From assembly GCA_012960535.1 (NCBI GenBank), contig DUBB01000007.1, positions 39,625 through 103,624 of the forward strand: 64,000 nucleotides of DNA, read 5' to 3'. A model generated the notes under the pieces. That model was not told the DNA's origin, ran no database searches, and saw nothing but the letters and a program-made list of their open reading frames with translations. Source of the DNA: Gammaproteobacteria bacterium (GTDB lineage Bacteria > Pseudomonadota > Gammaproteobacteria > Pseudomonadales > Azotimanducaceae). This document shows, one piece after another, positions 1,821-60,825 of this stretch; the first letter of the stretch is position 1; every line of letters starts with the position of its first letter. Made by a program: the position numbers and the translations under genes.

Positions 1821-3071
1821 TTAAGACCCATCGTTGATTAAATCAGCTTTTTCTGAAGCCTGACTTCGACGGGTCAGAGGAAAGACCAGTGCCAGCCATA
1901 AAAAACTCATCACCAGACCTATTAACAGGTAGTAACTGGACATGACCACGCCAATTTTTTGCATGAATACCACAGCAAGTGCTGACCCACCCTTGCCCGT
2001 TCGATAACCGAACACATCAATTATTTCCTTAGCACGATATCTAGAATCAAAGTCCAGGGGCATATAAATCAATTCTTTTGCACCCCGAAACAGCGAGTAA
2101 TCAAACACTTTAAAAGTGAACAAAGCCAATCCGACCGACATCAGACTCGGTGACCAGAGCGCATAACCAATCACACAAACCTGTAACAAAGGCATCAACA
2201 GATGAACAAATCGTAATGCAACAAAGCTGAGCAACAAGGGCGTCAATAAAAACTGTGATGCAACCGCAACTGAATTCAGATAAAACCAGAAATCACCCTG
2301 GAATGCTGTTTCTGCATCTGCTTGACCAACAAAATCGGCTGATAGCATGGTTTGGAATTTAAAATCCAAAACTGCAGCAATCACCTGAGCCGACAGAATA
2401 ATCAATAAAAGGCTCGCCAATTTACGATTCCTGGCAATCACCGACCAGCCCATGTGGCTGATGACAGAGCCTTTCTGGGCTTTTTCTGGTAATACGGGTT
2501 CACCAAAGTGCAGATAGGCCGCATTAGCAACAATACCCGCCGGTAGTATCGCCACAGCCGCTAGTAATATAAGCGTCTCAGTGCCCAAGGGCACGGCACT
2601 GACGGAGACCAGGTACGCTCCAAGCACGCTACCTAAACCGGCGATACCGGTTATTGGCCCATTAACTTTTTTTGCGGTCTGTTCAGTTAACGAGGAATTG
2701 ATGTAACTCCAGTACTGTTCTATCAACAACACAACATAAAATTCTTTCAGTAGAAAAAGCAGTGGTGTCACCATCTCAATACCCTGCCTTACGGCCAGGT
2801 AACCAGCAAAGATCAATAGTGCTGAACCGTAACTGGTCACCATCAGCGTCCGTCTAGGACCCAGTCTTGTGAGCAACCAGCCATAGCCTGCCACGCCAAT
2901 AAATACGACTAATGGCATTGCCATCATCACCAGGGGTAGATTTTCGGCTCCATAGGCATTTTTGAACAACACCGTCGACGCAGACCGCATAAATTCATAA
3001 CCTGCCAGCGTGAACATTGCCGAAACGGCCATTACAAAAGCAAGTTGGATGTCCTTTCTCACTGTTATCAC
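1821..3071 (-). CDS. Npt1/Npt2 (ADP/ATP translocase-like) family membrane carrier
   Basis: A 416-residue protein with about 11-12 hydrophobic helices. Motifs such as EQYWSYINSSLTEQTAKK (about residue 118) and the late RAKEIIDVFGYRTGKGGSA resemble the TLC/Npt nucleotide carriers of the MFS clan (residues EQxW, AKxxxxPIxGIAGLGSVLG and KxxIDxxxxRxGK). Parasite members exchange ATP for ADP; free-living relatives of this size have no assigned substrate, so the substrate here is open. The start is the first ATG after the divergent spacer with serC. The 3' end abuts the exporter gene tail to tail. It could also be called simply an MFS protein. Confidence 0.68.
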   Translation of the reverse strand: MITVRKDIQLAFVMAVSAMFTLAGYEFMRSASTVLFKNAYGAENLPLVMMAMPLVVFIGVAGYGWLLTRLGPRRTLMVTSYGSALLIFAGYLAVRQGIEMVTPLLFLLKEFYVVLLIEQYWSYINSSLTEQTAKKVNGPITGIAGLGSVLGAYLVSVSAVPLGTETLILLAAVAILPAGIVANAAYLHFGEPVLPEKAQKGSVISHMGWSVIARNRKLASLLLIILSAQVIAAVLDFKFQTMLSADFVGQADAETAFQGDFWFYLNSVAVASQFLLTPLLLSFVALRFVHLLMPLLQVCVIGYALWSPSLMSVGLALFTFKVFDYSLFRGAKELIYMPLDFDSRYRAKEIIDVFGYRTGKGGSALAVVFMQKIGVVMSSYYLLIGLVMSFLWLALVFPLTRRSQASEKADLINDGS

Positions 3072-3189
3072 TTTAGCTGCCTGCTTAAATCACAATTGAT
3101 CGGGTTTTATCGTTCTTGTCTGGGACAGGAATCTGAGGATACCTTATACTTCACATCCCTTACCTCTGTATAGTTTAAGATACCTGCAA

Positions 3190-34117: not shown

Positions 34118-34517
34118 AACGTCCTCGAATTAATCTACCCTAGTTTGCCATCATAGCTATCGTCCAGCACATGGCCACCCCACTATACTCATACTGTGTT
34201 CTCGTTGCCTGCGGTCGGTAACCGCCTTTTGCTTTCTTACATCGATGTCTGACCCATTGATGCCCGCCTTTCATTGATAACCCCCTAGCCAGCGATTCAA
34301 TCAGCGAGGCCGACCGCAAGACGCATTATAACATCGACTTGCCTGATCCACAGGTGTGGCGATGCGAAGCAGGTATAACATCGGCTTATCCAGGGTCTTT
34401 ACCCTGTGACGAAAATGTATAAGGCTAAATGTGGACATCTTCCGCCTGGATGCCTACACCAGTCCGGCCAGCCAGGATGAACCTCTCGTTAACCTGTGCT
34501 AATTTACAATAGCGATT
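34118..34517. other. Intergenic region without a supported gene
   Basis: About 400 bp between the divergent Rieske oxygenase gene and the 14-bp repeat array. It contains a 9-bp inverted pair TGCGGTCGG ... CCGACCGCA about 100 bp apart and two copies of a TATAACATCG(A/G)CTT word. I see no ORF with a ribosome site, no tRNA and no riboswitch I recognise. Confidence 0.5.
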
Positions 34518-34699
34518 GCGCTTTATAGGTAGCACTTTATAGATAGCACTTTATAGATAGCGCTTTATAGATAGCACTTTATAGATAACGCTTCATGGTA
34601 AGCGCTTTATAAGTAGCACTTTATAGATAACGCTTCATGGATAACGCTTTATAGGTAGCGCTTAATACAAAGCGCTTGATAAAAAGCGCTTAATAACAG
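34518..34699. repeat. 13-copy 14-bp tandem repeat (unit GCGCTTTATAGATA)
   Basis: 182 bp made of 13 head-to-tail 14-bp units related to GCGCTTTATAGATA, with variants GCACTTTATAGATA, ACGCTTCATGGATA and, at the 3' end, GCGCTTAATAACAG; one unit is 13 bp and its neighbour 15. Units have no unique spacers, so it is not a CRISPR. The array stops 12 bp before the ATG of the UPWC selenoprotein gene. Each unit carries AGCGCT or its near form, a 6-bp palindrome, so the phase repeats every 14 bp. Confidence 0.9.
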
Positions 34700-34711: not shown

Positions 34712-35335
34712 ATGATCCCGCTCCATATCGAAATTTTCAGCGACTATATCTGACCCTGGTGTTATCTCAGTACCGTGAGTATTGAACGCCTGCAGACCGA
34801 GCACGGCATCTCAACCAGTTGGATCCATTTTCCCCTGCATCCGAAAATTGCCGACGAGGGCATGCCAGTCAGGGACCTGTTTCCTAATCGAGACCCTGAA
34901 GACATGAAGGCCATGAGCAACCAGATGCGCGCACTCATGGAACAAGCCGGCCTGCCCTACGGCAAAAGGGACATGACCTACAACAGCAGGTTAGCCCAGG
35001 AACTGGGATCCTGGGCGGATACCCAGGAAGGCGGCAGCACCATTCATGATAGGTTGTTCAAGGCGTATTTCGTGGACAACGTCAACATCGGCGACAAAAA
35101 CATTCTGCTTGAAATAGCCAAAGACAGCGGGCTGGATGGTGACCAGGCTCGTGATGTGCTCGATCATCGCCTATTCAGTCCCCAGGTCACCGCAGACTGG
35201 CAACGGGCCTGGGAAAATGGCATTACCGGCGTACCGACCTTTACCAGCCAGGAACTTTACGTGGTCGGCAATCAGCCCTATGAAATTCTGCTACGGTTCA
35301 TCAATCACCTGCGTGAACTCAACACTGAAAAATAA
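34712..35335 (+). CDS. DsbA/FrnE-family oxidoreductase with selenocysteine (UPWC), UGA at 34751
   Basis: A 207-residue thioredoxin-fold protein if UGA is read as Sec. ATG 34712 has CAGG 7 bp upstream. The N-terminus reads MIPLHIEIFSDYI-U-PWC, where family members have FSDxxCPWC, so codon 14 (TGA, 34751-34753) falls exactly on the first redox Cys. The rest has the FrnE pattern: NPRDPED-like FPNRDPEDM, YNSRLAQELG, and the late GITGVPTFTSQELYVVGNQPYE with the cis-Pro loop. A 33-nt hairpin starts 4 nt after UGA (given separately). FrnE proteins act as cytosolic disulfide oxidoreductase/isomerase. Without recoding the product would end at 13 residues. Sec is the best reading; a point mutation is the alternative. 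Confidence 0.88.
34758..34790 (+). promoter_or_regulatory. Bacterial SECIS-type hairpin of the FrnE-family selenoprotein
   Basis: Starting 4 nt after the UGA: lower stem GGTGTT (34758-34763) pairs with AACGCC (34785-34790, one G-U), a 2-nt bulge, then AT with AT, a bulged U at 34780, and an upper stem CTCA/TGAG (34766-34769 with 34776-34779) closing a 6-nt loop GTACCG. The loop opens with GU, and the apex is 16-22 nt after UGA, the spacing used by E. coli SelB. Structure was worked out by eye. Confidence 0.75.
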
Positions 35336-36970: not shown

Positions 36971-37762
36971 CTAGATTGACGCCACCGCTCGAGCAGCCAT
37001 AACGCCACACAGATGGGCTCGATATTCTGCACCAGCATGAATATCGGCATTCATATCATCGCTGGCAAGCCTGACTTCGGCCAGCGCCTCAACGCTGAAA
37101 TTGTCATTCAGCACCTGTTCCATCTCGGTTGCCCTGAACACACTGGCAGCCGCGCCGGTGATTGCTACGCGTACCCCGCCGGCTGTTTTTGCTACCAGCA
37201 CACCTACCGTTGCGTAACGCGAGGCTGGATTCGGGAATTTCGCATAAGCCGCTGAGGCTGTAGTTGGAAAGCGAATAGCCGTTATCAACTCGCCATCCGC
37301 AAGTGCCGTTTCAAACATATCCTGAAAAAAATCATCAGCTGCTATTTCCCGCCGATCTGTGACGATGCTTGCACCCAAACCTAATACCGCTGCAGGGTAG
37401 TCTGCAGCAGGATCACTGTTTGCAACAGAACCACCGATGGTACCCCTGTTGCGAACCTGCCGATCACCTATTCCAGATGCCAGAGCGGCAAGCACAGGCG
37501 CCTCTGCTGATACCACTTCAGATTCTGCTACCTGACTATGGGTAACCGTTGAGCCTATCAGCAAGCTCCCGTCCTTTGCCTGTATTTCACCAAGCGACTG
37601 GATTGCGGACAGATCAATGAGATCCGTCGGGGCTCTCAACCTTTGCTTCATGGCAGGGATCAAGGTATGGCCACCTGCAAGGTACATGGCATCCTCCGCT
37701 GCGTTAAATAAAGCAACCGCATCAGCTACGGTGTCCGGTTTATGATAATTAAAATCGTACAT
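36971..37762 (-). CDS. coxM: CO dehydrogenase-type medium (FAD) subunit CoxM
   Basis: 263-residue FAD-binding flavoprotein of the xanthine dehydrogenase/CODH family. Motifs: YLAGGHTLIPAMKQRL (family AGGHSL, about residues 28-44) and the second FAD loop GTIGGSVANSDPAADYPAA. It passes electrons from the iron-sulfur subunit to the quinone or another acceptor. It starts 9 bp after coxL and ends the operon. Smaller than the usual 285-290 residues, mainly at the C-terminus. Confidence 0.9.
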   Translation of the reverse strand: MYDFNYHKPDTVADAVALFNAAEDAMYLAGGHTLIPAMKQRLRAPTDLIDLSAIQSLGEIQAKDGSLLIGSTVTHSQVAESEVVSAEAPVLAALASGIGDRQVRNRGTIGGSVANSDPAADYPAAVLGLGASIVTDRREIAADDFFQDMFETALADGELITAIRFPTTASAAYAKFPNPASRYATVGVLVAKTAGGVRVAITGAAASVFRATEMEQVLNDNFSVEALAEVRLASDDMNADIHAGAEYRAHLCGVMAARAVASI

Positions 37763-37771
37763 ACGGCCTCC

Positions 37772-40129
37772 TTAATTTGATGCAGCAGCATTCTGAATGG
37801 CTTGCCAGACTTTTTCCGAAGTGGCTGGCATATCCATATCGGTCTGGCCCAAAGCGTTCAGTACGGCATTCATGACGGCAGGCGGTGAGCCGATAGCACC
37901 GGCTTCACCGCAGCCTTTTGCACCAACCGGGTTATGGGTACAGGGCGTACAGGTCATACCCACATCAAACGAAGGCACATCATCCGCTCGTGGCATGCAA
38001 TAATCCATATAGGAACCCGTCACCAGCTGACCTTCGGTGTCGTAAACGCAATTTTCAAGCAGCGCCTGACCAATCCCCTGAACCAGCCCGCCGTGCACCT
38101 GACCTTCAACAATCATGGGATTGATCAAGGTGCCAAAATCATCCACCGCTGTAAATTTCGTGATTTCGGTTACCCCGGTATCAGGGTCAATTTCCACTTC
38201 GCAGATGTGTGTGCCTGCCGGGTAGGTGAAATTGACAGGATCATAAAACGCTTTTTCCGTGAGGCCTGGTTCCAGTTCATCGATTGGAAAATCATGGTTT
38301 ACGTATGCAGCAAAGGCGATTTCCTGAATCGTTTTACCTTCGTTACTGTCAATGACCTTGAATTCTCCAGCATCGAATTCGATATTCTCAGCATCCGTCT
38401 GAAGCAGGTGGGCCGCTATCTTTGTGCCTTTAGCTATCACCTTATCGGCAGCCCGGGAAAGCGCAGAACCGCCCACGGCTAAAGATCTTGATCCGTAGGT
38501 ACCAAGGCCAAAATCCATTTTACCGGTGTCGCCGTGAACCACGTCGATATCGTCAATGGGAATACCCAGCTTAGCGGACACCAATTGGGCAAAAGTGGTC
38601 TCGTGACCCTGGCCATGACTATGACTACCGGTCAGCACGGTTACAGAGCCGGTTGGATTGACCCTGATCTCGCCTGATTCCCACAGCCCGACTCCAGCTC
38701 CCAGGGAGCCCGCCAGCGCCGATGGCGCCAAGCCACAGGCTTCGATATAACAGCTCAGGCCAATACCCCGTAGCTTGCCTGCTCTCTGCGAGGCATCTTT
38801 TCTAGAAGCAAATCCTGCGTAATCGGACATCTCCAGGGCTTTATCGAGACTTGCCTCGTAGTCGCCAATATCATACTCAAGGGCAACCGGGGTCTGATAA
38901 GGGAACTGATCCTTGCCGATGAAATTCCTGCGTCGCAATTCAGCTGGATCTATGGCCAACTCGCTGGCAGCCTTTTCAACCAATCGTTCGAGCACATAAG
39001 TCGCCTCGGGTCGACCGGCACCACGATAGGCATCTACCGGTGCTGTATTAGTAAAAACCGCATCTACTTCTACATAAATACTGGGTGTGCGGTATTGTCC
39101 TGCCAACAAAGTCCCATATAAATAAGTGGGAACCGCCGATGCGAAGGTCGATAAATAGGCGCCCATGTTAGCCGTGGTTTTCACATTCAGAGCGAGAAAA
39201 TTGCCCTCCTCATCCAAAGCCAATTCAGCCATAGTATGATGGTCACGACCGTGCGCATCCGTCAGGAAAGACTCACTGCGCTCGGCTGTCCATTTAATCG
39301 GCCTGCCAATTTTTTTAGATGCCCATGAGATAGTTGTTTCTTCCGAATACACAAAAATTTTCGAACCAAAGCCACCGCCCACATCCGGCGCAATAACTCT
39401 CAGCTTGTGTTCAGGCGCTATTTGAACGAAAGCGGTAAATATCAATCGAGCCAGGTGCGGATTCTGACTGGTCGTGTATAAAATGAGTTCCTCAGTGCCG
39501 GTGTTGTAATCTGCGATAGCGGCACGAGGCTCCATCGCATTGGGTATCAAACGGTTATTGATGAGTTCAATTCGGGTAATATGGGCCGCCTCAGCCAGAC
39601 CCTGTGAGGTCGCCTCGGCATCGCCTAATTCCCAGTTATAGCAGGTATTTGCTGGGATATCCGGGTAAATATCAGCCTGCTCTGCAGCGCTACTGGTATC
39701 GACCACTGCCTGCAGGACTTCATAATCAACCGCTACCTGTTCAACTGCATTTTTGGCTTGCTCATAAGTATCAGCAATCACAACAGCCACCGGCTCACCA
39801 GCATAGTTTACCTTCTCTCCAGCCATGATCGGGTGCATGGGCTGCTTCATCTCAGAACCGTCTTTGGAGTGCAGCATCCAACCACAGGGCAACCCGCCCA
39901 GGCCATCTTCCAGGACCTGCAGCCCGGTCAGCACAGCAACGACCCCCGGTGCATTTTCAGCGGCGCTGATATGGAATCCTTTTATATTCGCATGGGCATG
40001 CGGAGACCTGACAAAGCAGGCATAGGTCTGCCCGGCCAGGTTAATATCATCGGTATAGCGCCCCTTACCAGTAATAAATCGATTGTCTTCCTTCCTTAGA
40101 ACTCTTGCTCCTATTAATTCGTTGCTCAT
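37772..40129 (-). CDS. coxL: CO dehydrogenase-type large (molybdopterin) subunit CoxL, form II
   Basis: 785-residue molybdenum hydroxylase subunit. The active-site loop reads AYRGAGR (367-373), the mark of form II (putative) CODH; the true CO-oxidising form I has AYRCSFR with the Cu-holding Cys. Other blocks: [11 protein letters not shown] (about 249-259) and [18 protein letters not shown] near the C-terminus, with the catalytic Glu in GEAG. So CO oxidation is not assured and another substrate is likely. The gene starts 3 bp after coxS. Confidence 0.92.
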
Positions 40130-40132
40130 CGC

Positions 40133-40609
40133 TCACGCCTCCCGCATTTTCTGGCCGGCACTTGCCACCGCAGATACAATATTGTGATAGCCCGTGCAAC
40201 GGCAGATATTTCCCTCCAGCCCCTCTCGAATTTCTGGCTCGGTCAGATCCATACCTGACTGCACCAGATCAATTGAGGCCATAATCATTCCCGGCGTACA
40301 AAAGCCACATTGCAGGCCGTGACATTCCTTAAAGGCAGCCTGCATGGCGTGCTGTTCACCTTGATTGGCGATACCTTCAATAGTGGTAATCTCCGAGCCG
40401 TCAACCTGAACGGCGAGTATGGTGCAGGATTTAACGGCCTTACCATCCACGTGCACAGTACACGCGCCGCACTGACTGGTATCGCAACCAACATGGGTTC
40501 CAGTAAGCATCAGGTGCTCCCGCAACAATTGCGACAGGGTGGTGTTAGCAGAACATGACACCGCTTTATCCTGTCCATTTACGATCAAATTCACGGTTTC
40601 TGACATCAA
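40133..40609 (-). CDS. coxS: CO dehydrogenase-type small [2Fe-2S] subunit CoxS
   Basis: 158 residues with two [2Fe-2S] clusters: the plant-type C-x4-C-x2-C ... C in GCDTSQCGACTVHVDG and KSC, and the second CGFCTPGMIM with CRCTGY. These are the hallmarks of the small subunit of molybdenum hydroxylases. It overlaps coxG by 4 bp and is 3 bp before coxL. Confidence 0.93.
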   Translation of the reverse strand: MMSETVNLIVNGQDKAVSCSANTTLSQLLREHLMLTGTHVGCDTSQCGACTVHVDGKAVKSCTILAVQVDGSEITTIEGIANQGEQHAMQAAFKECHGLQCGFCTPGMIMASIDLVQSGMDLTEPEIREGLEGNICRCTGYHNIVSAVASAGQKMREA

Positions 40610-41103
40610 CCTTCTCCTTGTATTGTTTCTATTACTACATCCATTGCTTCCTGTTTACAAACAATTCGGACAAATTCCGTAAAAAACTGTTTAGCTATTT
40701 TTCGCGCTGCACCATTAATCAGCCTACCGCCTACCTGAGCCAGTTTGCCACCTACAGTTGCAATGACCACGTAGGTCATCAGGGTTGCCGGCTGCGCGAC
40801 TGTACCGGCAGGGACCAGAGATACCTGCGCCCCTCCTTTGGCGAAGCCAGCCACGCCTCCTTGACCCTGCCCTGAAATCCGGTAAGCCCTGGGCGGATCC
40901 ATTTCAGTCAGCATGACCTCCCCTTTGAAAACGGCCTTTACCGGCCCTACCTTAGCCTGGACTGTCATCTCAAAACAATTCTCTGCTGTTGCTTCAAATC
41001 TCTGGCACCCCGGTAAACACTGCATCAGGATAAGCGGGTCATTGAGCGCATCCCAGACCACCTGATTGGATACTGGGATCTCAAGTCGTTGCGTTAATTC
41101 CAT
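40606..41103 (-). CDS. coxG: CoxG-like SRPBCC protein (CODH subunit G)
   Basis: 165-residue START/SRPBCC-fold protein. The CoxG block CLPGCQRFE followed by FEMTVQAKVGPVKAVFKGEV is present, as is GGKLAQVGGRLI. In Oligotropha, CoxG recruits the enzyme to the membrane. The long hydrophobic C-tail of that protein is missing here (this copy is short), so membrane binding may differ. Overlaps: 10 bp with the oligopeptidase gene upstream and 4 bp with coxS downstream. Confidence 0.86.
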   Translation of the reverse strand: MELTQRLEIPVSNQVVWDALNDPLILMQCLPGCQRFEATAENCFEMTVQAKVGPVKAVFKGEVMLTEMDPPRAYRISGQGQGGVAGFAKGGAQVSLVPAGTVAQPATLMTYVVIATVGGKLAQVGGRLINGAARKIAKQFFTEFVRIVCKQEAMDVVIETIQGEG

Positions 41104-46031: not shown

Positions 46032-46060
46032 TTGACTCAATTACTGTATATATGTACAGT
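46032..46060 (+). promoter_or_regulatory. Sigma-70 promoter of imuA-imuB
   Basis: -35 TTGACT (46032-46037) and -10 TACAGT (46055-46060) with a 17-bp spacer. The LexA box (next entry) lies within this spacer and covers most of the -10. Expected RNA start near 46067 gives a short leader of about 22 nt to ATG 46089. Confidence 0.6.
46044..46059. promoter_or_regulatory. LexA (SOS) box upstream of imuA
   Basis: CTGTATATATGTACAG matches the gammaproteobacterial LexA consensus CTGT-N8-ACAG with both arms perfect. It overlaps the imuA promoter, so repression by LexA and release during DNA damage is expected. Confidence 0.85.
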
Positions 46061-46088
46061 AGTTTATCTATTAAAAGCCACTCCCCGT

Positions 46089-46970
46089 ATGACCGAGATA
46101 TCTGAATTACAGCAACTTATGCAGGAAACCGGACTGTGGCGAGCGAATCACCTGCCCGCATCATTGGCCAAAGGAATTCCAACCGGATTTCCCGAACTGG
46201 ACCCTTGGCTGCCCGATAACGGTTGGCCCAGAGAATCAGTTACCGAACTGCTATACCCTTATTCGGGGATAGGCGAACTGAGATTATTAGCACCTGCTCT
46301 AGCCTTACTCAGCCAGCAACAGAGCCGTTGGATCGCCTGGATTGGTTCGCCCTACATACCCTATGCCCCGGCACTGATCCAGGCAGGTATCAAGATAGAA
46401 ACCATCCTTATCATCAGGCCAAAATCAACAGCAGATCAGTTATGGGCAATAGAAAAATCTCTGGCGTCGGGTGCCTGCAGCGCCGTACTTGCCTGGCCAG
46501 AAAAAAGCATACAATCAAAGCATATCCGCCGCCTGCAACTGGCCTGTAAGGCAGGCCAAAGCTGGGGACTGGTATTTCGCTCCGACAAAGCAGCGGAACA
46601 GTCGTCACCGGCACCATTACGATTACACCTGCAACCCAATAGAAAAAGTAATTTATCAAAAAAATCAGATATTTGTGTGTCCATTATAAAGCGACCTGGA
46701 GGATGGGCTTCAGGTCCCATCGATATTCAGTTTAAAGGTGACTTAGACTTACGCAGGCCACACGCCCCTGTCACCACTATTCAAAAGGTCTCTTCTCAGA
46801 AAGTCTCTTCACCACGGAAATTTCAATACCGACAGGCAGCAACTGACACCAAGGCCGGATTGGTCTGGCCGGACCAAACCAGGCCGGACCAAACCAGGCC
46901 GGACCAAACCAGGCCGGACCAAACTTTAGTCCATCCCAGCCTGGGCAATAGCTTTGATAGAAAACAATAA
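46089..46970 (+). CDS. imuA: Translesion synthesis protein ImuA
   Basis: A 293-residue RecA-like accessory protein of the SOS mutasome. Family blocks: TGFPELDPWLPDNGWPRESVTELLYP, a SRWIAWIGSPYIPYAPAL strand, and RRLQLACKAGQSWGLVFR. No true Walker A is present, as in other ImuA/ImuA' proteins. I start at 46089 because an upstream TTG (46032) lies before the promoter and LexA box. The C-terminal tail (after about residue 230) is extended and ends with four RPDQT repeats encoded by 15-bp DNA units. The stop is 22 bp before imuB. Confidence 0.86.
   Translation: MTEISELQQLMQETGLWRANHLPASLAKGIPTGFPELDPWLPDNGWPRESVTELLYPYSGIGELRLLAPALALLSQQQSRWIAWIGSPYIPYAPALIQAGIKIETILIIRPKSTADQLWAIEKSLASGACSAVLAWPEKSIQSKHIRRLQLACKAGQSWGLVFRSDKAAEQSSPAPLRLHLQPNRKSNLSKKSDICVSIIKRPGGWASGPIDIQFKGDLDLRRPHAPVTTIQKVSSQKVSSPRKFQYRQAATDTKAGLVWPDQTRPDQTRPDQTRPDQTLVHPSLGNSFDRKQ
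46865..46924. repeat. Four 15-bp tandem copies in the imuA 3' end
   Basis: Four units of CAGGCCGGACCAAAC (first copy starts CTGG) encode PDQT(R) in frame. Near-identical copies suggest a recent and length-variable expansion. The repeat length is a multiple of 3, so gain or loss keeps frame. Confidence 0.9.
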
Positions 46971-46992
46971 AGCAATCAATCAATACCATGGA

Positions 46993-48681
46993 ATGATCAG
47001 CAACACACCTAAGCAAAGACTATGGCTCTGCCTCCACTTCTCCAGGCTTCCCCTGGAAGTATTCAGCCGCTCAATAGCAGAGCCTTCAGCTTATAAAGAG
47101 CCTTCAGCCCATAAAGAGCCCTCAGCGAACAAAGAGCCCTCAGCCCATAAAGAGCCTTCAGCCCATAAAGAGCCCTCAGCGGACAAAGAGCCCTCAGCCC
47201 ATAAAGAGCCTTCAGCCCATAAAGAGCCGTCAGCTCATAGAGAGCCCTCAACACACAAAGAACAAAAAAAGCCGTTGGCTAACAACTTCGAAGCGTTGAT
47301 AACCCCCGTCTCTATTACATCAGCTGGTCGTATCTTTATGAGTAATACTGCAGCCTGCGCAGCAGGAATAGAAACCGGCAGCATTGCCAGCAGTGCGCAC
47401 GCTATTTGCAGCAACCTAAAATGTATTAGCCGAAATGAAGAAAAAGAAACCCGGGCATTACTACAACTCGCCCACTGGGCTTATCAATTCACCCCCAATG
47501 TCGCTGTAAGGGAACCTCACTGCCTGCTGCTTGATATCACTGGCTGCCTTACCCTGTTTACCGGGCTTGCCAACCTGAAGAAGCAGATCACTGAAAATTT
47601 AATCCCGCTTGGGTACAGTGCAGCAATAGGTGTTAATGTGACACCGCTAGCTGCGTTAATGAGTGCGGAAGCGGGCATTAAAGACAATATCGAGGAAAGC
47701 CCGGCAGAGATCCTTGGTCAGGTCAGCATTCATTACTTACGCATTGAGCTAAAAATTATCAGCCAGTTACAACGAATGGGCATACAAACCCTAGAAGATC
47801 TCTTCAAATTACCCCCATCCGGGTTAAGCCGGCGCTTTGGCAGCGACTTAGACCAGTGCTTATCAAAACTGAAGGGGCTGATACCGGATCCCCAGAAATT
47901 TGTCCCTCAAAAAGTTTCATTCCAGTCCGAATTAAATTTCATGACCGATATCAGCAATCTGCAATCACTGCTCTTTCCAATGAAACGACTCATCGGCGAA
48001 TTCTGTGGATTTACCCGAAGCCGACAGTTATACGCCCATAGTTTTACGATAGAGCTCACCCACCGAAGCCATCCTGCAAAGAAAATCACGATAGATCTGG
48101 CAAAACCGGATAACGACCAGGATATGTTCCTGGCATTGACCCAATTACAACTGGATAGAATCCATGACATGCCAGAAGTCGACAGCCTGGCACTGAAATC
48201 AACTCAATTCTGCCCTGCTAAAACCAGGACAGCTCCGCTGTTTCCGGAAGACCCTGGTTCTACCTTTGGAGTCATGGAGCAGGATAAAAATTCAGCTTAT
48301 CTACTCAACATGCTGACAGCCCGATTAGGGCACGATACCTGTTTCTGTCTGGCCATAGGCAATGATCACAGGCCGGAAAAAACCTGGCAGGCTACCCAGG
48401 TAAAAAAGATTCGCAGCAAGACCATAACCCAGGACCCTGTTAGAGCAACCAGGCCCCTGTTCCTGCTTGACCAACCTAAAAAATTATACGCTCACACCGA
48501 TAGGTCATCACTGAACAGCTTAGGACTAATACAAGGTCCGGAGAGAATCTGTTTTGGCTGGTGGGACGAAAATGGCTTCAGCAGAGATTACTATATCTGT
48601 CAGCACAGCAATGGGGCTATTTACTGGATTTACTACCAGGATTATGAATCCGAATGGTATCTGCATGGATTATTTTCGTAA
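46993..48681 (+). CDS. imuB: ImuB, catalytically dead Y-family polymerase-like protein with EPSAHK repeats
   Basis: 562 residues; about 80 longer than usual (near 480). ImuB is the SOS mutasome hub that links DnaE2 and ImuA to the beta clamp. It begins with the normal QRLWLCLHFSRLPLEVFSRS strand, which is cut off from the rest by 10 copies of a six-residue unit (EPSAHK). Then ALLQLAHWAYQFTPNVAV, LLLDITGCLTLF (the D-E acidic pair of real Y-polymerases is replaced) and LGYSAAIGVNVTPLAALMSA; the tail WYLHGLFS is typical. ATG 46993 is chosen as the longer frame starts with TTG and no conserved sequence precedes it. It shares the imuA promoter. Confidence 0.88.
   Translation: MISNTPKQRLWLCLHFSRLPLEVFSRSIAEPSAYKEPSAHKEPSANKEPSAHKEPSAHKEPSADKEPSAHKEPSAHKEPSAHREPSTHKEQKKPLANNFEALITPVSITSAGRIFMSNTAACAAGIETGSIASSAHAICSNLKCISRNEEKETRALLQLAHWAYQFTPNVAVREPHCLLLDITGCLTLFTGLANLKKQITENLIPLGYSAAIGVNVTPLAALMSAEAGIKDNIEESPAEILGQVSIHYLRIELKIISQLQRMGIQTLEDLFKLPPSGLSRRFGSDLDQCLSKLKGLIPDPQKFVPQKVSFQSELNFMTDISNLQSLLFPMKRLIGEFCGFTRSRQLYAHSFTIELTHRSHPAKKITIDLAKPDNDQDMFLALTQLQLDRIHDMPEVDSLALKSTQFCPAKTRTAPLFPEDPGSTFGVMEQDKNSAYLLNMLTARLGHDTCFCLAIGNDHRPEKTWQATQVKKIRSKTITQDPVRATRPLFLLDQPKKLYAHTDRSSLNSLGLIQGPERICFGWWDENGFSRDYYICQHSNGAIYWIYYQDYESEWYLHGLFS
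47080..47259. repeat. Ten 18-bp tandem copies within imuB
   Basis: Ten head-to-tail units of the form GAGCCTTCAGCCCATAAA encode EPSAHK variants (fifth residue H, Y, N or D; last K or R). Third-position changes (CCT/CCC, TCA) show some age, while several units are identical. Multiple of 3, so frame is kept. Confidence 0.92.
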
Positions 48682-60704: not shown

Positions 60705-60727
60705 TATAATTTAATGATGCGTATTCT

Positions 60728-60795
60728 TCGTTAAGTGACTTTATTTGTTAAATAACTTTTTTTGTTAAATAGCTTTCTTTGTTAAATAGCTTTCT
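60728..60795. repeat. Four 17-bp tandem repeats in the dnaE2 leader
   Basis: Units close to TTGTTAAATAGCTTTCT at 60728, 60745, 60762 and 60779; the last two are identical and a fifth partial copy follows. The array lies in the untranslated leader between the LexA box and the start codon. Confidence 0.85.
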
Positions 60796-60825
60796 TTGTT
60801 ACCTGATTTTTTTAAATGACCCAGA

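Follow-up and report, generated by a model that had tools for sequence, protein, structure and literature searches.

The window (the whole stretch of DNA that was analyzed, 64,000 nucleotides) contains a gene for a FrnE/DsbA-type protein, here called sec-frnE, whose reading frame is crossed by one in-frame TGA codon at the redox motif. The features at this locus are as follows.

34514..34695, plus strand: 13-copy tandem array of a 14-bp unit, preceding the gene and judged to be outside the system
34712..35335, plus strand: sec-frnE, encoding a 207-residue FrnE/DsbA-type protein with a UPWC motif (PF01323, 110.5 bits; FrnE fold)
34751..34753, plus strand: in-frame TGA at codon 14, where the first Cys of CPWC is expected, predicted to encode selenocysteine (Sec); shared by all 24 genes with at least 48% identity
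34758..34790, plus strand: lower stem, 34758-34762 with 34786-34790, formed here, sequence not conserved
34760..34762, plus strand: TGT codon for Cys17, which completes the redox pair; the sole Cys codon in the protein
34767..34785, plus strand: upper hairpin, arms 34767-34773 and 34779-34785, loop CGTGA at 34774-34778, supported by synonymous reshuffle tests, with slight covariation
34775..34777, plus strand: GTG in the hairpin loop, start of the 186-residue frame listed by the standard gene caller
35228..35242, plus strand: GVPTF, residues 173-177, with GVP present in 23 of 24 Sec genes

The TGA is the single internal stop of the frame, which reads DYI-U-PWCY around it and ends with a TAA whose last base is 35335. 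A preliminary description of this DNA had placed a TGA at 34751 where the first Cys codon of CPWC is expected, in a frame intact on both sides; both points are borne out, the first by the 24 of 24 related genes and the second by the lack of any other stop from 34712 to 35335. Standard gene calling at this place gives the 186-residue frame from GTG 34775 alone, which has no active site. The DSBA domain of the full-length protein scores well above the Pfam cut-off of 25.6 bits, and in an NCBIfam search no model passed its own cut-off. The GVPTF segment is presumably the Pro loop that adjoins the active site in DsbA-fold proteins.

When the protein is modeled by AlphaFold with Cys in place of Sec, a confident structure is obtained (pLDDT 96.5, pTM 0.91). 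In this model, examined with regard to a signal peptide, the first strand begins at residue 5 and the motif lies at residue 14, so that a signal peptide would have no space. In a Foldseek search of the PDB, the top five matches are all Deinococcus FrnE (TM 0.88-0.90), followed by SCO1869 (0.88) and then by HCCA isomerase (0.77) and others. FrnE is also first by sequence (E 3.4e-17). The protein has the characters of the FrnE subfamily, namely the DSBA domain, a CXXC-type motif, and the FrnE fold, with TGA as the codon for the first Cys.

The TGA is kept among relatives. A search of 58 related genomes gave a first set of genes with at least 48% identity, 18 in number and spread over 17 genomes; each has a single stop, a TGA, and reads UPWC. 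The motif scan of loci missed several genes, which lay on the reverse strand or had another motif (L014, L018, and L019 were recovered afterwards). A second sample of 390 genomes of the order, partly overlapping the 58, added six genes, which come from a single genus of a different family and all carry TGA at the codon. The two samples together give 24 genes at this level of identity in 23 genomes of the order, and all 24 have TGA. The second sample also added three genes at 40-42% identity from another genus of that same other family, and all three have TGC.

Database homologues were examined for the same site in the best 120 of 3056 proteins. Only 38 of these 120 cover the site: 28 have Cys, 5 Trp, 3 Arg, and 2 Gly. 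The other 82 begin behind it, and 64 of them begin exactly at residue 22, the GTG at 34775. Trp and Gly match how TGA is read under translation tables 4 and 25. All five Trp proteins have hairpin-coded residues of the Sec type and are placed among the Sec forms on the tree described below. The comparison of homologues proposed in the preliminary description thus gives TGA or Cys where the site is covered, when the five Trp and two Gly are counted as other-code readings of TGA; the exceptions are three Arg. These three proteins (P0040, P0048, and P0109) read RPWC, and we know of no translation table that gives Arg for TGA.

Behind the TGA lies a hairpin of the SECIS type, with 20 nt from the TGA to its loop. 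All 126 of 126 upper-stem pairs are formed in the first 18 genes, while 2000 reshuffles, in which synonymous codons were redrawn from each gene's own usage, had a mean of 69.6 pairs and a maximum of 86. The six further genes form 42 of 42 pairs (reshuffle mean 21.9, maximum 33), which brings the upper stem to 168 of 168 cells over 24 genes. Codon choice in the hairpin is also conserved. Pairwise identity is 0.875 for the Leu codon, 1 for each of the two Ser codons, 0.89 for Ile, and 1 for Glu, with lower values for Thr (0.69) and Val (0.56), compared with 0.41 on average across 80 degenerate downstream columns. Covariation is slight, with one two-sided change (A-U to G-C in G007) and a value as high in 31 of 500 shuffles. 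Synonymous-codon nulls were used because there is too little variation for covariation to decide. Folding of the single sequence is only mildly better than that of shuffled sequences (z about -1.8 to -1.9) and is weak evidence for the hairpin.

In the bacterial SECIS model as outlined in a review (PMC13188914), the loop has 3-9 nt with a G within its first two positions, the upper stem has 4-16 bp, the distance from TGA to loop is 16-37 nt, and the energy is -7.5 kcal/mol or lower. By the same outline, the check for a bacterial SECIS element comes out in favor of the window gene, whose hairpin has a loop of 5, a stem of 7, G as the second loop base, a distance of 20 nt, and -11.3 kcal/mol. As an isolated 45-mer, another lowest-energy fold is found in 6 of the 18 genes, and 5 of the 18 miss the -7.5 kcal/mol limit. 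The hairpin had been described as two-part with a loop starting in GU. The hairpin is present and its lower stem is formed here, but the loop is C-G-U-G-A, with G second, and the lower stem is not conserved: it is also found in some relatives (G011, G013, and G007), its 3' side differs among relatives, and only the upper seven pairs are kept. No match to the hairpin was found in an Rfam search.

A model of the hairpin searched against the 58 genomes recovers the 18 source genes, then three genes outside the model at 28 bits, and then 11 matches with E of 0.001-0.01. The three genes (L109, L110, and L111, in G022, G002, and G003) belong to a second, distant DsbA-type family with 26-30% identity and TGA in YLUPWCYN; L110 is a PF01323 protein. 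One of these 11 matches, in the own genome (G000:C42:88965-89023, E 0.0011, model R1), was considered as a second hairpin gene and rejected as chance; it sits in a different frame of a stretch that runs open with no stops. A separate observation is a distant FrnE-like frame (L036, in G039) in which TGA replaces the Trp codon of the motif, giving CPUC instead of CPWC; this is either a mutation, an error in the reads, or an oddity of another kind.

The genome encodes Sec machinery. As the preliminary description had suggested, it was searched for selA, selB, selC, and selD, and all four were found above their cut-offs: selA at 569.7 bits, selB at 425.8, selD at 255.3, and tRNA-Sec at 49.8 (gathering cut-off 47). 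selA and selB are adjacent on contig C42, with tRNA-Sec and selD about 35 kb away. The tRNA-Sec has UCA in its anticodon loop; ARAGORN labeled this stretch as tRNA-Lys rather than tRNA-Sec. SelD, 742 residues long, is a fusion protein that carries a Pyr_redox_2 domain at its N-terminus and has a CGGC motif. Its gene lies in G000:C42:131000-138000 (L088, 2642-4870, minus strand), and the tRNA-Sec is found just beyond it.

Among the 23 carrier genomes, 20 have selB above the cut-off. Among the 58 relatives it is found in 14 of 17 carriers versus 18 of 41 others (Fisher p 0.009, uncorrected for kinship), and in the other family of the order it is found in 6 of 6 genomes with TGA and 0 of 3 with TGC. 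The carriers without selB above the cut-off are G002, G030, and G032. In G002 selD is present and neither selA nor selB was found; G030 has a partial selA match, and its selD is not above the cut-off; G032 has a partial selA match that begins at base 3 of its contig. The missing genes in these three may be assembly gaps.

Because relatives keep both the TGA and the hairpin and the genome encodes Sec machinery, the TGA of sec-frnE is predicted with high confidence to be read as Sec by the genome's SelA, SelB, SelD, and tRNA-Sec, and its product is likely a cytosolic disulfide oxidoreductase. Judged from these sequence comparisons, sec-frnE is a genuine selenoprotein gene, with Sec as the predicted residue. 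It is hardly conceivable that the TGA is instead a nonsense mutation or an assembly error, leaving a gene that is dead or makes just the 186-residue protein from GTG 34775. The short frame is the only one given by a standard gene caller, and it is where 64 of the best 120 database homologues start, but it has no active site, the synonymous codons of the hairpin are fixed, and the same TGA stands in all 24 genes in frames that are otherwise open. A reading of the TGA as some other amino acid, either by a changed code (TGA as Trp) or by plain read-through, is very improbable. The same frame terminates with TGA in 6 of the 18 genes (G022, G016, G017, G025, G034a, and G032), so TGA is a stop in those six genomes. 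Furthermore, the site is either Cys or TGA, and both the hairpin and the full Sec machinery exist. In favor of such a reading are the five Trp and two Gly database homologues, as other translation codes would yield.

The predicted selenoprotein could also be real and use glutathione, as a relative of HCCA isomerase or kappa GST, rather than act as a protein-disulfide reductase. This is unlikely. Its fold is common to both of those enzymes (2imd, TM 0.77; 1yzx, TM 0.74), but FrnE structures fit better in fold (TM 0.88-0.90) as well as in sequence, and the Deinococcus FrnE, as reported in PMC8945050, is a disulfide reductase of the cytoplasm that also has isomerase activity.

In the selenoprotein reading, and as expected from known bacterial biology, Sec would be brought to residue 14 by SelB, which would arrive with Sec-tRNA and dock on the hairpin that lies 20 nt past the TGA. 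The Sec14-Cys17 pair would sit where helix 1 begins, opposite the Gly-Val-Pro loop. Like the Cys pair of Deinococcus FrnE, it would take part there in disulfide exchange with substrate proteins. The isomerase activity of the Deinococcus protein was seen in vitro, and a C-terminal CXXXXC, which is not universal among FrnE proteins, aids its regeneration, according to the account in PMC8945050. Such a C-terminal pair was found in none of 24 Sec forms, 28 close Cys proteins, 10 Cys loci, and 18 distant FrnE loci. In 13 of the 24 Sec forms, including the window protein, there is no Cys beyond the motif. The idea that Sec substitutes for the C-terminal pair was rejected, as close Cys forms are also without the pair. 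Since the window protein has no further Cys, its turnover would need reducing power from outside, for example from thioredoxin or glutathione, and the protein is likely a Sec-Cys exchanger that is reduced by an outside partner. The earlier suggestion of a strong low-potential oxidoreductase finds no support in this analysis.

A tree of 81 proteins, of which 24 have Sec at the site, 47 have Cys, and 10 have Trp, Arg, or Gly, was used to follow the history of the Sec/Cys site. The Sec label requires at least seven changes, five of them forced by well-supported branches; this count is rough because the tree has long branches (L055, L138, G034b, and others). Cys forms are nested among Sec forms. 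The seven hairpin-coded residues occur in 6 combinations in the 24 Sec forms versus 37 in the 47 Cys forms, a contrast that is suggestive rather than proof because the Cys set is more diverse overall. A Sec-type combination is also found in 5 of the 47 Cys forms, which counts against a reading of these residues as frozen. For the hairpin itself, 13 Cys loci were tried, and 12 were left after L043 was not recovered. Only one of the 12, L046 from a Geobacteraceae MAG with TGC, forms all seven pairs (3028-3072). It scores 44 bits with the hairpin model, versus 70 for the window gene, and is a possible relic SECIS after a Sec-to-Cys switch. Tentatively, and with less than even confidence, Sec-FrnE could be a reversible selenium switch, in which Sec and Cys have replaced each other several times at a single codon following the presence or loss of selB and in which the SECIS, as long as the Sec form persists, limits the helix residues beside the active site. 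If this is true, the use of Sec costs a nearly frozen substrate-facing helix, and Cys forms are free to vary.

The array of 14-bp units that precedes the gene had been pointed out as a noteworthy part of the locus. It is present with its 13 copies, but no link to Sec insertion was found. There are four copies in G011 (93% protein identity) and none in G013 (87%) or G022 (63%), and elsewhere in the own genome the unit has two single matches only, with two mismatches each. On these copy numbers and this rarity, the array was rejected as part of the Sec system. It is a young lineage-specific minisatellite and is not common to the more distant Sec genes examined. No promoter-like match was found within the array.

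Another neighbor is an operon for a CoxM/L/S/G-like molybdenum hydroxylase at 36971-41103 on the minus strand, convergent with sec-frnE. CoxL has AYRGAGR, which we take to be the form II motif. The Cox operon is convergent in 7 of the 18 loci (the own genome, G011, G013, G022, G007, G016, and G034b; the G013 contig ends after CoxM). No Cox operon was found at the remaining 11 loci, whose stretches span 4.6 to 15.5 kb and in some cases are cut short by contig ends; these mostly have other neighbors. Because it is on the opposite strand, the Cox operon is read as shared chromosome order and not as an operon with sec-frnE, and a function drawn from these gene neighbors was rejected. Other repeats in the window are in-frame coding repeats of 15 bp (PDQTR) and 18 bp (KEPSAH) at 46867-46924 and 47079-47261, which lie where a SulA/ImuA-like frame (46032-46970) ends and an ImuB-like frame (46954-48681) begins, and a 17-bp tandem repeat with 4.6 copies at 60724-60801.

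DsbA-like selenoproteins with UXXC have been reported before. Nine sequences of COG2761 were described from the Sargasso Sea in 2005 (PMC1088965), the group was named from bacterial genomes in 2006 (PMC1794560), and the GOS survey of 2008 listed DsbA 1-3, with 63 sequences in "DsbA 1" (PMC2398784). They also appear in a 2026 review (PMC13188914). The remark that DsbA-like Sec proteins are known from marine metagenomes is confirmed by the Sargasso Sea and GOS reports, as far as their accounts of the family go. Judged by titles and the openings of abstracts, no biochemical work on FrnE or DsbA proteins that contain Sec was found in the literature searched, which mostly excludes subscription journals.

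With sec-frnE, a family first known from marine metagenome sequences is now seen in whole-genome context, and most of its closest database entries are stubs without the active site. The matched sister genera, one having TGA with selB and the other TGC without it, could make the value of selenium versus sulfur measurable in one enzyme. The understanding of Sec insertion itself is unchanged by sec-frnE.

Among known systems, FrnE of Deinococcus radiodurans (DR_0659; PDB 5cnw, 5co3) is similar in fold (TM 0.88-0.90), in sequence (27-28% identity), and in the position of CPWC; both are DsbA-type, and the window protein may be cytoplasmic like the Deinococcus one. In contrast to this protein, the window protein has a predicted Sec for the first Cys and is without the C-terminal CXXXXC. 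SCO1869 of Streptomyces coelicolor (PDB 3gl5) shares the fold (TM 0.88) at 26% identity, and the window protein differs from it by the predicted Sec in place of Cys. The SelD fusion of the own genome resembles the Ndh-SelD fusions with CxxC that are described for marine sequences in the GOS survey (PMC2398784). In a comparison with the published tables and legends, at the level of the family (DsbA 1 or DsbA 2), no difference was found from the COG2761 family or GOS DsbA 1; the likeness includes PF01323, Sec at the first Cys of CXXC, a presumed marine source, and a hairpin after the TGA whose small loop contains G. sec-frnE is a well-supported new case of a selenoprotein family known since 2005, and it is less unusual than first noted.
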